Shown piece after piece: positions 4,283 through 45,926 of a DNA stretch of 47,111 nt (positions are counted from its first letter, which is position 1; every line of letters starts with the position of its first letter). This stretch comes from an uncultured Candidatus Actinomarina sp. (GTDB lineage Bacteria > Actinomycetota > Acidimicrobiia > Actinomarinales > Actinomarinaceae). Below the pieces are notes generated by a model. It was not told where the DNA came from. It saw nothing but the letters and a program-made list of their open reading frames with translations, and searched no databases. Position numbers and translations under genes: made by a program. The stretch covers positions 1 through 47,111 of the forward strand of contig CACLXG010000005.1 in assembly GCA_902610815.1 (NCBI GenBank). Direction: 5' to 3'.

Positions 4283-6584
4283 TCAGCGCTTCTTTCACTT
4301 GACTAGGTATGATCATTATCTCTCTTGAGAAATCAAATTTATTTAACTCTCTTCTGTTTGTTGGAATATAAACTAAGTCATTAGGAAAACTATTATTAAC
4401 TTCATAACTTACAGTAACTTCTAATTCATCTTGCGCTAATATACAACTACCAGAAGTTAAATTGTACTTTTCAGCTACGCTCTCACTTACTTCAATAAAT
4501 TTTTTTGATCCTAGCATAGAGATACTGTCAGAATGTCTTTCAGTAGCAGAATCTCCATAAAGTTTTTCACCAGTAAAAAACATGGTCTTATTTAATTTAT
4601 TTTCTGAAGCAGCAATTTTTGGATTAAAGATATTTATCATTCCATCTAAATTTGATGGTTTATCTAAATTATCAAATACTGGACTTAAAGAAGAATCAAG
4701 ATTTTCATATGCTTTTCTATTGAGATCTTCTAAGCTATTTGTTTCAACTGTAAGACCTGCAAAATTCATTAAACTTGTTATAAATTCCCAATCACTGAGA
4801 GTTTGGCCGGGAGATGGAACAAGTTTGTCTATACGAGATGTTCTAAATTCGATATTTGTAAAAGTTCCTTCTTTTTCACCCAATGTTGAACTTATTGGTA
4901 CGACATAGTCAGAAAGTTCTGAAGTTTCGTGATTGAAATTATCTAATGTTACAACTGTATCTATGCTTTTGATAATTGATTTTATTTGATTTGAATAAAC
5001 AGAACGACCAATAGGATCTGCACCCACAATAAATAATAGATCTGTATTATCTTTTGATATATCATTAACAAAATCATTGAGTCCTTTTAGGTTTTCTAAA
5101 GTTTGAAAAGCACCATAAGTATTACCTTTTGAGTAAGCATTTAATACTTTTGAATTTGCATTTGAATTTAAAAATTCAAATAATTTTGTAACACTTTCAT
5201 CAGACTGATAAGGTGTGGATTTACCCAAAATAGCTGTAATATTTTTACCCGCTACTAAATTGTTTATTTCTTTCATTTTTGAAAGATCTTTTAAAATTTC
5301 AAAGTTTTCTGAAACCATATCTTTACCGTAAAATACATCCGCAATATCACTTAATGTCTCATTTGTATGGCCAAAAACTACTAACTTAACTCCATTTTTT
5401 ACAGCCTGGCGAATTCTCAAATAAAGTACGGGAAGTTTTTCTTTCAAATCTTCAGCCCATACAACTATTGCATCAGAAGAGTTTAAATCATCAATCTTTG
5501 CTAATTCGATATTTTCACCAAAAAAACCTTTATAAAGTAAATCATCATTTAAATAAAAACTTCTTTCAGATTTAGAAATGGTATTTGAAAATTCTCTGAA
5601 TGCAACATAGTCCTCATTTGTTAAATTTGAACCGAGTAAAAAGTTAACTTTTGTTTGTCTGTCTTTAATAAATTCTGCAAGTTCAGAATATACATCCTGA
5701 ATTTCGATTTCTACTAATTCATTATCCGTCATTTTAAGTGGAGTTTTTAATCTTGAATCAGAATTTAAATACTCAAAATTGTAACGTCCTTTATCGCACA
5801 TCCATCCTTGATTAACAGCATCATTATCGACACCAAGAATTCTTAACATCTTATTTTGTGATGAATTCAACTCTATTGAACAACCCGTAGGACAACCGTT
5901 GCAAGTTGATCTTATAGATTTTAGGTCCCAAGGCCTTGCTTTAAACCTATAGGATGTAGAAGTTAAAGCACCAACAGGACAAATCTGAACAGTATTGCCT
6001 GAAAAGTATGACTTGAAAGGTTCATTTGGAAAAGTATTAACTTCTGTTTTGTTTCCTCTTTGGATAAACTCAATTAACGGATCGCCTGAAATTTCATCTG
6101 AGAACCTTGTACATCTTGCGCATAAAATACATCTCTCTCGATCAAGCAATATTATTTCAGATATATTAATTGGTTTTTCAAAATGTCTTTTTTCTTCAAC
6201 AAAACGACTCTCTCCTGGGCCGTAAGCCATTGTTTGATCTTGAAGCGGACACTCTCCAGCTTTATCGCATATAGGACAATCAAGAGGGTGGTTGATCAAT
6301 AAAAATTCTAAGACTCCCTCTTGAGCTTTTTTTACGACATCCGATTCTGTGTCAACAACCATTTCATCACTGACTTCAGTTGTACAAGATGGTACCAACA
6401 TTTTACCTCTTGGTGTTTCAACTTCAACTAGACACATTCTGCACATGCCAACTGGATCTAAGCGTTTGTGCCAACAAAATCTTGGAATGTGAATACCAGA
6501 GTCTTCACATGCTTCAATTAATAACTTATTAGGATCAGACTCAATTTCTAAACCGTTAACATTTAAATTAACTTTTTCACTCAT
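4272..6584 (-). CDS. nuoG: NADH-quinone oxidoreductase subunit G
   Basis: Largest peripheral-arm subunit; it carries the 2Fe-2S cluster N1b and several 4Fe-4S clusters. 770 residues. The N-terminal ferredoxin domain has C37, C48, C51 and C67. A His-Cys cluster region follows (DCPICDKAGECPLQDQ), then CILCARCTRF with CPVGAL. A molybdopterin-oxidoreductase-type domain starts with CNGCPTGC and WMCDKGRYN. The second half is the degenerate, cofactor-free molybdopterin-enzyme fold. Start and stop overlap nuoF and nuoH by 4 and 11 bases. Confidence 0.96.
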   Translation of the reverse strand: MSEKVNLNVNGLEIESDPNKLLIEACEDSGIHIPRFCWHKRLDPVGMCRMCLVEVETPRGKMLVPSCTTEVSDEMVVDTESDVVKKAQEGVLEFLLINHPLDCPICDKAGECPLQDQTMAYGPGESRFVEEKRHFEKPINISEIILLDRERCILCARCTRFSDEISGDPLIEFIQRGNKTEVNTFPNEPFKSYFSGNTVQICPVGALTSTSYRFKARPWDLKSIRSTCNGCPTGCSIELNSSQNKMLRILGVDNDAVNQGWMCDKGRYNFEYLNSDSRLKTPLKMTDNELVEIEIQDVYSELAEFIKDRQTKVNFLLGSNLTNEDYVAFREFSNTISKSERSFYLNDDLLYKGFFGENIELAKIDDLNSSDAIVVWAEDLKEKLPVLYLRIRQAVKNGVKLVVFGHTNETLSDIADVFYGKDMVSENFEILKDLSKMKEINNLVAGKNITAILGKSTPYQSDESVTKLFEFLNSNANSKVLNAYSKGNTYGAFQTLENLKGLNDFVNDISKDNTDLLFIVGADPIGRSVYSNQIKSIIKSIDTVVTLDNFNHETSELSDYVVPISSTLGEKEGTFTNIEFRTSRIDKLVPSPGQTLSDWEFITSLMNFAGLTVETNSLEDLNRKAYENLDSSLSPVFDNLDKPSNLDGMINIFNPKIAASENKLNKTMFFTGEKLYGDSATERHSDSISMLGSKKFIEVSESVAEKYNLTSGSCILAQDELEVTVSYEVNNSFPNDLVYIPTNRRELNKFDFSREIMIIPSQVKEALNVN

Positions 6585-41149: not shown

Positions 41150-41989
41150 TTAAAAATTAATATTGAGTTGATACTTTTCAGAAAATTTATTTAATTCATC
41201 AGTTTTGAGTTGTAGTAATGAATATTCTTCTATTTTTTTTGGTACTTTGACATCCAACCTCAAAGTAGTAAGGCTTTTAAATAGTTGAAGTAGTTCATAG
41301 TTTTCAAGAATTGTATTTGCGTGTCTTTCTCCACTTCTAATATTATTTTTCCAGATATTTAAATTTTGATAAATATTTTCAATGTTTTCATACTTTTTAA
41401 GTAGCACTGATGCAGTCTTTTCACCAATACCATTCATACCTGGAATTCCATCAGAAGAATCACCAACAAGTGCCAGAAAATCTGGTATTTGATAAGGATG
41501 AACTCCAAATTTTTTATAAACATCATCTCCTGTTGTAAAAGATTTATACCTAGTGGAGTACATTGAAATATTTTTAACATTTAGACATTGCATTAGATCT
41601 TTATCTAATGATCCAATAATAATTTCTACATTTTCATTTTTAAATAACTCACATACAGTCGCAATAGCATCATCTGCTTCGTAATAATCCATTGGTATTA
41701 AAGTAAGTCCAAGTAGTTCTGTAGCTTTTTCAGCCAAGGGGAATTGATCTAATATTTCTTTATCAATATTTTTACTAGATTTGTATTCGTTATAAATTTC
41801 ATTTCTAAAAGATTCAACCTTTGAATCGAATGCAACACCTATATATTCATATTTTTTTCTTAAGGATTGCAGGTGGTTTATGTATCCTTTTAATGCACCT
41901 ACTTCTTTTCCCTGTTTTGTCTTCCTGCTTGGATAACCAAAATGTGCTCTAAAAAGCTCGTAAGTACCATCAACTAGGTAGATTTCCAT
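41150..41989 (-). CDS. 5'-3' exonuclease (DNA polymerase I N-terminal type)
   Basis: Stand-alone flap/5'-nuclease. 279 residues. Metal-binding acidic sites include the N-terminal VDGTYELFRAHFG, YEADDAIATV and IIGSLDKDLMQ. The H3TH DNA-binding motif is LVGDSSDGIPGMNGIGEKTA. There is no polymerase domain, so it resembles YpcP/ExoIX. No Shine-Dalgarno is seen at the ATG. A candidate structured RNA with a terminator lies directly upstream, so transcription may be attenuated there. Confidence 0.9.
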   Translation of the reverse strand: MEIYLVDGTYELFRAHFGYPSRKTKQGKEVGALKGYINHLQSLRKKYEYIGVAFDSKVESFRNEIYNEYKSSKNIDKEILDQFPLAEKATELLGLTLIPMDYYEADDAIATVCELFKNENVEIIIGSLDKDLMQCLNVKNISMYSTRYKSFTTGDDVYKKFGVHPYQIPDFLALVGDSSDGIPGMNGIGEKTASVLLKKYENIENIYQNLNIWKNNIRSGERHANTILENYELLQLFKSLTTLRLDVKVPKKIEEYSLLQLKTDELNKFSEKYQLNINF

Positions 41990-42020
41990 ATTTGAATTTT
42001 AATTTCGATTTCATTTCGCT

Positions 42021-42066
42021 GCAAAAAGCAAAAATCCCGATTGATCTTGCGACCCTTCGGGATTTT
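42021..42066 (-). terminator. Intrinsic terminator / 3' hairpin of the candidate small RNA
   Basis: Perfect 10-base arms AAAATCCCGA (42057-42066) and TCGGGATTTT (42031-42040), with a 16-base loop that folds into a GCAA-capped mini-stem. On minus it is followed by TGCTTTTTGC. It also lies downstream of metX and would end that transcript. Confidence 0.75.
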
Positions 42067-42112
42067 CTGTTCTATCTTCTTTTCCATCTTGCGATTTCTT
42101 TTCCGATAGTGT
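42021..42112 (-). ncRNA. Candidate structured small RNA or attenuating leader
   Basis: On minus, hairpin 1 is CUAUC (42105-42109) paired with GAUAG (42072-42076); inside, identical strands GGAAAAGAA lie on both sides of AUC-GCAA-GAU. Hairpin 2 is AUCCCGA/UCGGGAU enclosing GUC-GCAA-GAU. So both hairpins end in the same GNRA-capped tip, sharing TCGCAAGAT. Hairpin 2 is followed by a U-rich tail and serves as terminator. A promoter with 17-base spacing lies at 42119-42147. Length about 90 bases. It could be an independent small RNA or the 5' leader of the exonuclease gene. I do not recognise the family. Confidence 0.6.
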
Positions 42113-42118
42113 TCTATA

Positions 42119-42147
42119 AATATACGTTAGTTTTTGTTCTTATGCAA
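42119..42147 (-). promoter_or_regulatory. Promoter of the candidate small RNA
   Basis: On minus, TTGCAT (42142-42147) and TATATT (42119-42124) are separated by exactly 17 bases. Transcription should start near 42112. It lies in the gap after metX. Confidence 0.6.
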
Positions 42148-42175
42148 GAAAATTACTAAGGTATTTTTCGCGAAG

Positions 42176-43255
42176 TTATAAGAAGTTTTTAAGAGTATCT
42201 TCGAACAATTCAGGTTCTAGTAAAAATGAATCGTGTCCTTTCGTTGAATTGATAGTTGTATATGTGGTTTTAATTTCTTGATTACTTAATATTTCTATAA
42301 ACTCTTTTTGTTCTTCAGGATAAAAACAAACATCTGAGTCTACTGATATTACTAATGTTTCAATATCTTTTAATTTACTTAAATCCTCTTGTTTAATTTT
42401 ATAATTTTGCCAACCCTTAATAATCGAAAGGTATGATTCTGGTGTAAACCTCTCTATAAACTTTTCACCTTGATGCATCATATATGACTCTTGAGGTGTA
42501 GAAAGAAATCCTTTTATTAAATCATCACCATATAAGGTTTCACTTTTTGCTCTATTGGAAAGTAACTCTAGAGATATATATGTTTTATGAGCAACCATTC
42601 TCGCAAGTGATAAATATTCAATATTGCGATTATTTGATTCTCTTCCTAAATCTAAAATATATGCTTGTTCAAGATTGTGAAGAGTTTGGAGTGTAGAAAG
42701 CTTATATCCACTTGAAATAGAAATAAGTTTTTTTACATATTCTGGATACATTGTGCAAAACTCAAGTGCCATTAACCCACCTATAGAGGGACCTATAACA
42801 GCTTCTAAAGATTTAACATTTAAATAATCTAAAAGTAATTTTTGTGATATCTCAATATCTTTAAATGAAACTAATGGAAATTCATAACCATACTTTTCAT
42901 TTGTGCTTTTATTAATAGAACTTGGACCGGTGGAACCGTAACAACCTCCTAAATAATTTGCACAAACAACAAAATATCTGTTTGTATCAATTATTTTATT
43001 TGGCCCGACAAAGCCATCCCACCACCCTGTTTCTAATTCTTCATTCCAGGGTATATCGGGATTGTCTAGTTGTTGATAGCTACCAGCCAACATGTGACTT
43101 CCAGTAAGTGCATGAAAGACAAGTATTGTGTTATCTCTGCTCTCTGAGAGTCTTCCCTCGGTTGTATATGCAATCTCTACATTCTCTAATAATTCCCCTG
43201 AATCAAGTTTGAATTTTGGAATGTAAAACTTGCCTGAATTACTTTGTACTTTCAA
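42176..43255 (-). CDS. metX: Homoserine O-acetyltransferase
   Basis: Alpha/beta-hydrolase acyltransferase that activates homoserine for direct sulfhydrylation. 359 residues. FHALTGSHMLAG near the N-terminus, GPNKIIDTNRYFVVCANYLGG and GSTGPSSIN are MetX blocks. Nucleophile Ser is in GPSIGGLMALE; the catalytic Asp is in SVDSDVCFYP and His in KGHDSFLLE. Whether it uses acetyl- or succinyl-CoA cannot be settled by eye. It overlaps metY by 17 bases and shares its SAM riboswitch. Confidence 0.93.
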   Translation of the reverse strand: MKVQSNSGKFYIPKFKLDSGELLENVEIAYTTEGRLSESRDNTILVFHALTGSHMLAGSYQQLDNPDIPWNEELETGWWDGFVGPNKIIDTNRYFVVCANYLGGCYGSTGPSSINKSTNEKYGYEFPLVSFKDIEISQKLLLDYLNVKSLEAVIGPSIGGLMALEFCTMYPEYVKKLISISSGYKLSTLQTLHNLEQAYILDLGRESNNRNIEYLSLARMVAHKTYISLELLSNRAKSETLYGDDLIKGFLSTPQESYMMHQGEKFIERFTPESYLSIIKGWQNYKIKQEDLSKLKDIETLVISVDSDVCFYPEEQKEFIEILSNQEIKTTYTTINSTKGHDSFLLEPELFEDTLKNFL

Positions 43256-44546: not shown

Positions 44547-44561
44547 TTTGACTACTTAGTT

Positions 44562-44633
44562 GCATTGCTGCCACATTTTCAAGCACCTTGGATAGTCATC
44601 CAGGTTGCCGAGGTCTTAACCTTCTCTTTATGC
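44562..44633 (-). ncRNA. SAM riboswitch (SAM-I/SAM-IV superfamily, compact) upstream of metY-metX
   Basis: On minus it has the conserved core GCAACCT...AGGTGCT of SAM-I-type aptamers, 5' GCATAAAGAG and 3' ATGTGG. The element before metK shares all of these (GCATATAGAG, CTCAGCAACCT, AAGGTGCTT, GATGTGG). The P3 arms CCTGGAT/ATCCAAGG are visible. The P2 region is much shorter than in classic SAM-I and lacks the long k-turn arm, which points to SAM-IV or the SAM-I/IV variant. Closing pair GCAT/ATGC spans 44630-44633 with 44562-44565. Confidence 0.85.
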
Positions 44634-44640
44634 TTCTCAA

Positions 44641-45757: not shown

Positions 45758-45786
45758 AATCCTCCTAATTTGCAAACGCAAGGATT
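45758..45786 (-). promoter_or_regulatory. Ribosome-binding-site hairpin of metK
   Basis: On minus, AATCC (45782-45786) can pair with GGATT (45758-45762), whose GG is the end of the Shine-Dalgarno AGGAGG (45761-45766). An inner stem TTGC-GTTT-GCAA (45770-45781) supports the fold. This resembles the metY arrangement and suggests translational control by SAM. Confidence 0.55.
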
Positions 45787-45810
45787 GGAACGCCATTTTT
45801 TGTTGTATAA

Positions 45811-45869
45811 CCACATCAAAAAGCACCTTAGTTGGCAACTAGGTTGCTGAGGTATTCCTCTCTATATGC
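45811..45869 (-). ncRNA. SAM riboswitch (SAM-I/SAM-IV superfamily, compact) upstream of metK
   Basis: On minus: GCATATAGAG, a short hairpin GAGG-AATA-CCTC, the core AGCAACCTAGTT...AACTAAGGTGCT (P3 arms CCTAGTT/AACTAAGG), then TTTTTGATGTGG. The same order and spacing occur before metY. The 5' leader of metK from here to the TTG is about 55 bases. The boundaries are approximate. Confidence 0.85.
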
Positions 45870-45926
45870 ACTCAATATGCTAATTAAAATAAAATGTTTT
45901 TCAATCAGTAAACAAAAAAAACTTTA

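Follow-up and report, generated by a model that had tools for sequence, protein, structure and literature searches.

What stands between metX and a 5'-3' exonuclease gene on the minus strand of this Candidatus Actinomarina contig: a gene in its own right, or a regulatory appendage of one of its neighbors? A first-pass annotation of the window, by which we mean the whole 47,111-nucleotide stretch analyzed, had described a promoter followed by two hairpins that share a GCAA-capped tip. It offered three readings: the element could be a small RNA terminated by its second hairpin, a leader that attenuates the exonuclease gene, or a pair of tandem ligand sensors. Comparison of the locus with its relatives favors the small RNA and speaks against the other two.

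The predicted small RNA gene, delimited by sequence comparison, covers about 90 nt (42022 to 42113, minus strand, as are all the elements that follow). Transcription would start near 42112-42113, judging from the position of the -10 element, and would end at the T-rich tail. The -35 element TTGCAT (42142 to 42147) is conserved among copies and is separated by a 17-nt spacer from the -10 element TATATT (42119 to 42124). Hairpin 1 (42072 to 42109) consists of a CUAUC/GAUAG stem, a 9x9 A-rich internal loop and an AUC-GCAA-GAU tip. Hairpin 2 (42030 to 42067) has a terminator stem, a 2x2 internal loop (AG/AA) and a GGUC-GCAA-GAUC tip, and it runs into a U-rich tail (42021 to 42034) whose first T residues also close its stem. 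Thus, the two hairpins, their GCAA tips, the tail and the promoter all lie where they had first been placed. Just beyond the coordinates considered at that time, 20 nt ahead of the -35 element, we found a TTCGCGAAAAA box (42164 to 42174) that may be a regulator site, with the core TCGCGAAAA at 42173-42165.

The predicted fold of the RNA had a free energy of -28 kcal/mol, compared with -17.1 +/- 3.1 for dinucleotide shuffles (z = -3.5; 1 of 200 shuffles was as good). A generic consensus scan listed neither the promoter nor a terminator for the RNA, and both calls are therefore based on conservation across copies. The 9 nt located 3' of the hairpin-2 core read TTTTGCTTT in 62 of 81 copies and TTTCACTTT in 17.

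Three copies of the RNA are present in the home genome, an assembly of 1.10 Mb in 7 contigs with 93.7% completeness. In addition to the window copy, one at C3:15356-15481 is identical over 126 nt, and a third, 84% alike, is found about 0.2 kb from the C3 copy. BLAST searches returned matches in 31 of 59 genomes, the home genome included, corresponding to 31 of the 35 genomes of the same genus and none of the 24 others of the class. With a covariance model we retrieved 81 copies from 36 of the 42 genomes of the genus, at 1 to 4 per genome. In a sample of 296 genomes of the class that included these 42, the same 36 genomes were recovered together with six weak matches among the 254 others. Among 396 genomes of the phylum, only the home genome was matched at E <= 0.001 and the 395 others gave nothing; the class and phylum runs used stricter filters, with which weak matches are lost. 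The six genus genomes devoid of a covariance match are 51 to 87% complete, and one of them (G001) has the promoter of a copy at a contig end, although some may truly have lost the RNA. For the exonuclease protein, the nearest relatives, at 91 to 93% identity, are six records labeled Candidatus Actinomarina or Actinomarinales, which places the window in that lineage. Across the genomes sampled, the RNA family thus appears restricted to the genus, with its copies mostly at two chromosomal loci.

We analyzed conservation of the structure in an alignment of 58 distinct sequences, obtained from 70 copies in 31 genomes by omitting one N-containing row and collapsing identical rows. Standard pairs occupied 99.1% of the pair cells, a value reached by none of 500 shuffles, whose mean was 96.4. 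Changes on both sides were found at 6 of the 23 pairs and in 44 cells, whereas the shuffle means were 2.8 and 15.1, and again no shuffle out of 500 reached either value. The number of further pair types was that of the shuffles (12 versus a mean of 11.9; 378 of 500 as high). When the 3' partners were slid by 1 to 3 columns, 30 to 52% of the cells were paired. The strongest single covariation was at the outermost pair of the hairpin-1 tip, which is A-U in 33 sequences and G-C in 25. Two positions count against the structure: stem 1 fails to pair at its innermost base pair in 10 of the 58 sequences and at the next one in 2.

In the full set of copies, hairpin 1 has a 3-bp paired tip capped by GCAA in 69 cases and GAAA in 12. 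The loop of hairpin 2 is of the GNRA type in all 81 (GCAA in 79, GGAA and GAGA in 1 each), and the tip stem of the GAGA copy is altered to GGCC/GGTC. Both hairpins are kept in 81/81 copies and compensatory changes back their stems, so that conservation in close relatives, the check by which the structure was to stand or fall, is borne out. The tip common to both hairpins is likewise real and conserved. The other striking feature initially singled out, the identity of the two internal-loop strands of hairpin 1, is incidental, as it occurs in only 7 of the 58 distinct sequences; the loop is kept A-rich (67% A) but its sequence varies.

The limits of the conserved unit were apparent among the 14 orthologues of the window locus. 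The box is conserved at an identity of 0.93, the -35 element at 0.86, the -10 element at 0.90, the RNA with its tail at 0.89 to 0.94 and the two spacers at about 0.75. Identity falls to 0.49 and 0.52 in the flanks, some of which are not homologous. Given the sharp drop at both edges, the conserved unit extends from the box to the tail. A small protein gene was considered and rejected, as the three frames are open across the RNA in 22, 1 and 38 of the 81 copies and none is kept open.

The conserved promoter, the further copies, the compensatory changes and the sharp edges argue for a small RNA terminated at hairpin 2. Comparison of the copies defines the boundaries of the gene, its structure, its copy number, its independence from its neighbors and the box common to all copies. 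We propose, with a probability of roughly three in four, that it represents a new, multicopy family of trans-acting sRNAs that belongs to a growth- and replication-linked regulon, with a putative regulator and a putative partner.

The conservation of the individual parts bears on the nature of that partner. Identity is highest in the tip stem of hairpin 2 (0.99; 0.98 to 0.99 over the tip) and is 0.91 in the outer stem. The tip-1 stem (0.83) and the 5' internal-loop strand (0.82) are about equally conserved. Leaving aside the 5' leader and the tail, conservation is lowest in the 3' internal-loop strand (0.74) and the linker (0.59). Bacterial trans-acting sRNAs most often work by base pairing, and the same independent RNA could be antisense, its A/G-rich internal-loop strands and linker pairing with U/C-rich stretches of mRNAs. 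The fairly good conservation of the 5' strand would fit such a mode, but the 3' strand and the linker vary most and the hairpin-2 tip hardly at all. We thus regard antisense pairing as a credible but minority reading. A protein partner is slightly favored for two reasons: hairpin 2 and the twin UC-GNRA-GA tips are better conserved than the linker and the 3' loop strand, and the several near-identical gene copies point to dosage. A terminator needs no fixed tip, yet no part of the RNA is better conserved than the tip stem of hairpin 2, and this also shifts the balance slightly toward a structural or protein-binding role.

Could the element instead belong to one of its neighbors? The window copy has the same orientation as metX and lies about 60 nt beyond it; about 31 nt separate the tail from the start of the exonuclease gene. 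Among the 14 genomes with the window locus, the metX frame is present upstream in 8 and absent in 6. The exonuclease gene follows in 12 and is replaced in 2 by a tRNA gene, identified by an Rfam match in one of these and by the same sequence in the other. The remaining 56 of the 70 copies are located elsewhere with other neighbors, most of them at a second locus, next to a conserved gene that has no Pfam match. The downstream gene varies both between and within loci, and the constant position before one class of genes that would mark a cis-regulatory leader or a riboswitch was not found. As the RNA occurs without either neighbor and at a second locus, it is neither the 3' end of metX nor a leader of the exonuclease gene.

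In view of these arrangements, we consider it very unlikely that the element is a mere terminator or the 3' end of the metY-metX operon. Its distance from metX, its orientation and the terminator-like hairpin 2 would suit that role, but six orthologues lack the metX frame, metX is separated from the RNA by a conserved promoter and box, and copies exist elsewhere. The RNA may in addition stop the transcription of metYX. The attenuating exonuclease leader envisaged at first is slightly less probable still. It has in its favor the short distance to the exonuclease gene and the association in 12 of 14 genomes, but neither the two loci with a tRNA gene in that place nor the many copies elsewhere agree with it. 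The tandem ligand sensors of the same annotation, and tandem riboswitches in general, were set aside, since the downstream gene is not constant and no Rfam family matched at the gathering threshold. Least probable of all is a mobile or REP-like repeat devoid of a function of its own, suggested by the several copies and the variable genes (none, cytochrome P450 or others) between second-locus pairs, but opposed by a distribution over mostly two syntenic loci rather than scatter, a conserved promoter, compensatory changes and no match in viral contigs or in phage or plasmid records.

The multicopy loci were inspected further. At the 26 loci with at least two copies, the gap between neighboring copies holds no gene in 10 cases, a cytochrome P450 gene (by Pfam) in 11, a putative acetyltransferase gene (our own reading) in 4 and another gene in 1. 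The gene between second-locus copies differs among loci (L069-L072, L075-L078, L080, L081, L084, L086, L087, L090, L097 and L099). The repeats there look as if they were marking or driving a gene-exchange hot spot, and second-locus copies could be persisting substrates for recombination. Separately, a second conserved element follows the last RNA copy at one locus (L033, about 5035-5115, minus strand) and at 25 further loci. It reads AAGACUCCC...GUGGCU...GCAC(GAAAGGAAGUC), its ends could pair, and the L033 element gave no convincing Rfam match; it may be another structured RNA or a leader.

Eight genomes have copies of type A at both loci. The units are identical over about 149 nt in four of them, and identity ranges from 0.886 to 0.98 in the other four. 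For comparison, orthologues at the window locus have median identities of 0.92 to 0.95 (about 94% alike). In genome G023, the two loci (0.886) are less alike than the orthologues of other species. This pattern points to gene conversion between the loci in some lineages.

The box adds a further dimension to the locus. TCGCGAAAA is present in 81/81 copies, 106 to 110 nt before the hairpin-2 core. In 68 of the 70 rows, 20 nt separate the box from the TTG of the -35 motif; in the remaining 2, the spacing is 19 nt. The home genome contains 8 TCGCGAAAA sites, compared with 9 for the reversed control: the three RNA copies, one site each at whiB and nrdJ, two at dnaA-rpmH and one inside a coding frame. 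The longer form TTCGCGAA occurs 5 times (14 for the reversed control), at the three RNA copies, before whiB and between dnaA and rpmH. Over 39 genus genomes, there are 2 to 10 TTCGCGAA sites per genome, compared with 2 to 14 for the control. As the counts do not exceed those of the control, only the placement of the box is special. WhiB and the class II ribonucleotide reductase encoded by nrdJ were identified by Pfam.

We inspected 25 TTCGCGAA sites in the home genome and six relatives. Ten belong to dnaA-rpmH (7 loci in 7 genomes), 5 to whiB, 2 to RNA copies and 1 to the reductase gene, and 7 are inside open reading frames; the further TTCGCGAA sites of these seven genomes are RNA copies already retrieved and stand outside the 25. 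At all seven dnaA-rpmH loci, two TCGCGA motifs are 20 bp apart. When all exact TTCGCGAA sites of the six relatives are taken, the dnaA-rpmH pair is present in 6/6 and the whiB site in 4/6, none being seen at whiB in G022 and G027. The whiB site lies 51 nt before the start codon in five genomes, including the home genome.

The box before nrdJ is 121 nt from the gene in the home genome. Of the 27 distinct sites inspected, 23 have the nrdJ start 120 to 122 nt downstream (24 of 28 rows, with one site represented twice). A loose 18-mer had matches in 38 of the 42 genomes of the genus, but many were matched by its reversed control as well; by our count, the exact stretch TCGCGAAAATTTTAC is listed for 35 of the 42. 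The distance between the box and a plausible -35 element is, by our own reading, 20 nt at the RNA gene, 10 nt at whiB and 19 nt at nrdJ, which would amount to a difference of about one helical turn. Between the TCGCGAAAA box and the reductase gene, about 45-61 nt before its start, one inspected locus (L247) also has a ACACTACATTTAGTGT palindrome, similar in many relatives, which we take to resemble an NrdR box. The likeness of the RNA 5' end, ACACTA, to an arm of such an NrdR-type palindrome before nrdJ was set aside as coincidence.

We then considered 22 genomes from other genera of the class, over at most 220 nt before the gene. Paired TCGCGA motifs 20 bp apart were present at 2 of 22 rpmH loci, which belong to two other families of the class (L217 and L227), and a single TCGCGA at one more (L232). 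Among the whiB-like loci of these genomes, 29 of 30 were readable; TCGCGA occurred at 1, and none adjoined AAA or TTT. Four whiB loci of the genus g51 carry GCGCGAAAA or ACGCGAAAA instead.

That same genus accounts for five of the six weak covariance matches in the class, with E values of 0.002 to 0.009 per genome. The sixth and best, in genome G168 (E 8e-4), is a plain terminator hairpin, and thus matches of such strength can arise by chance. The g51 candidate is a conserved, strongly structured intergenic stretch of about 420 nt (1330-1840 in locus L170, also in four further loci), present in 8 of the 296 class genomes, all of them members of g51. Upstream of it, TCGCGAAA and GCGCGAAA are located 20 bp apart at all five aligned loci. 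No Rfam family matched at threshold at three of these loci, one of which, L170, was also scanned permissively. The g51 RNA has the same terminator plan, CCCGA, 2 nt, a 4-bp tip with GCAA, 2 nt and UCGGG, but it is far longer, and nothing in it convincingly matches hairpin 1. Over hundreds of genomes, such E values are within chance, and it is only the boxes that make homology with the Actinomarina RNA suggestive.

We compared the RNA with known families. In the window, Rfam 15 gave no family at gathering threshold for it and reported only a tRNA and two SAM-I-IV riboswitches. The latter, at 44547-44638 and 45786-45874 on the minus strand, precede genes that we read as metY and metK. A permissive scan of 41950-42250 gave low scores only, the best being 25.6 bits against a cutoff of 83, and at eight loci with further copies only a tRNA and a SAM-I-IV riboswitch were reported. 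Among the matches listed in searches of the open-licence literature, none was presented as a description of the RNA or of the box.

In its own promoter and terminator, its independence from neighboring genes and its compensatory changes, the RNA resembles free-standing bacterial sRNAs, of which it probably forms a new family. The 6C RNA of Actinobacteria is also short, two-hairpinned and free-standing, but its loops are C-rich, whereas those of the Actinomarina RNA are GNRA, and Rfam reported no match to the RNA in the window. CsrB- and Qrr-type sRNAs are encoded by several near-identical gene copies under one regulator, an organization shared here if the proposed regulator exists; GGA is present in the home copy but not preserved across copies, and the likeness is one of features. 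The free-standing, structured nature of the RNA and its open internal loop resemble those of Ms1 and 6S RNA, which bind RNA polymerase as core or holoenzyme. In the portions of PMC9130861 that describe them, Ms1 is an actinobacterial RNA of about 300 nt tied to growth phase, and 6S RNA is about 180 nt long with a central bubble. By that description, the Actinomarina RNA differs from both, having about 90 nt and two separate short hairpins rather than 180 to 300 nt and a long hairpin with a central bubble.

Taken from the sequences, the following course of events would account for the arrangement. A putative regulator would bind TCGCGAAAA, some 20 bp ahead of the -35 element, and set the transcription of the RNA together with that of whiB, the class II nrdJ and the dnaA-rpmH region. 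RNA polymerase would start near 42112 and stop at hairpin 2, yielding an RNA of about 90 nt with two hairpins, which would act in trans, in a role linked to growth and replication. A bolder version, which we offer as a doubtful extension, makes it the RNA arm of a new regulon for growth and replication in this actinobacterial lineage. One TCGCGA-box regulator would set dnaA-rpmH, ribonucleotide reductase, whiB and the multicopy RNA, and the RNA, at high dosage and homogenized by gene conversion, would titrate or modulate a core machine, be it the regulator itself, RNA polymerase or a ribosome-associated protein, via its twin GNRA tips. The longer g51 RNA would then be an ancestor or an analogue.

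Candidatus Actinomarina is reportedly an ultra-small, low-GC marine actinobacterium (Ghai et al. 2013). The presence of up to four copies, homogenized in several species, in a genome of about 1.1 Mb argues for a real and possibly dosage-sensitive job for this RNA. The covariance model could be used on existing ocean metatranscriptomes to seek the transcript. By tying the RNA to dnaA, ribonucleotide reductase and whiB, the box may provide a handle on how growth, nucleotide supply and replication are coupled in a very small genome.
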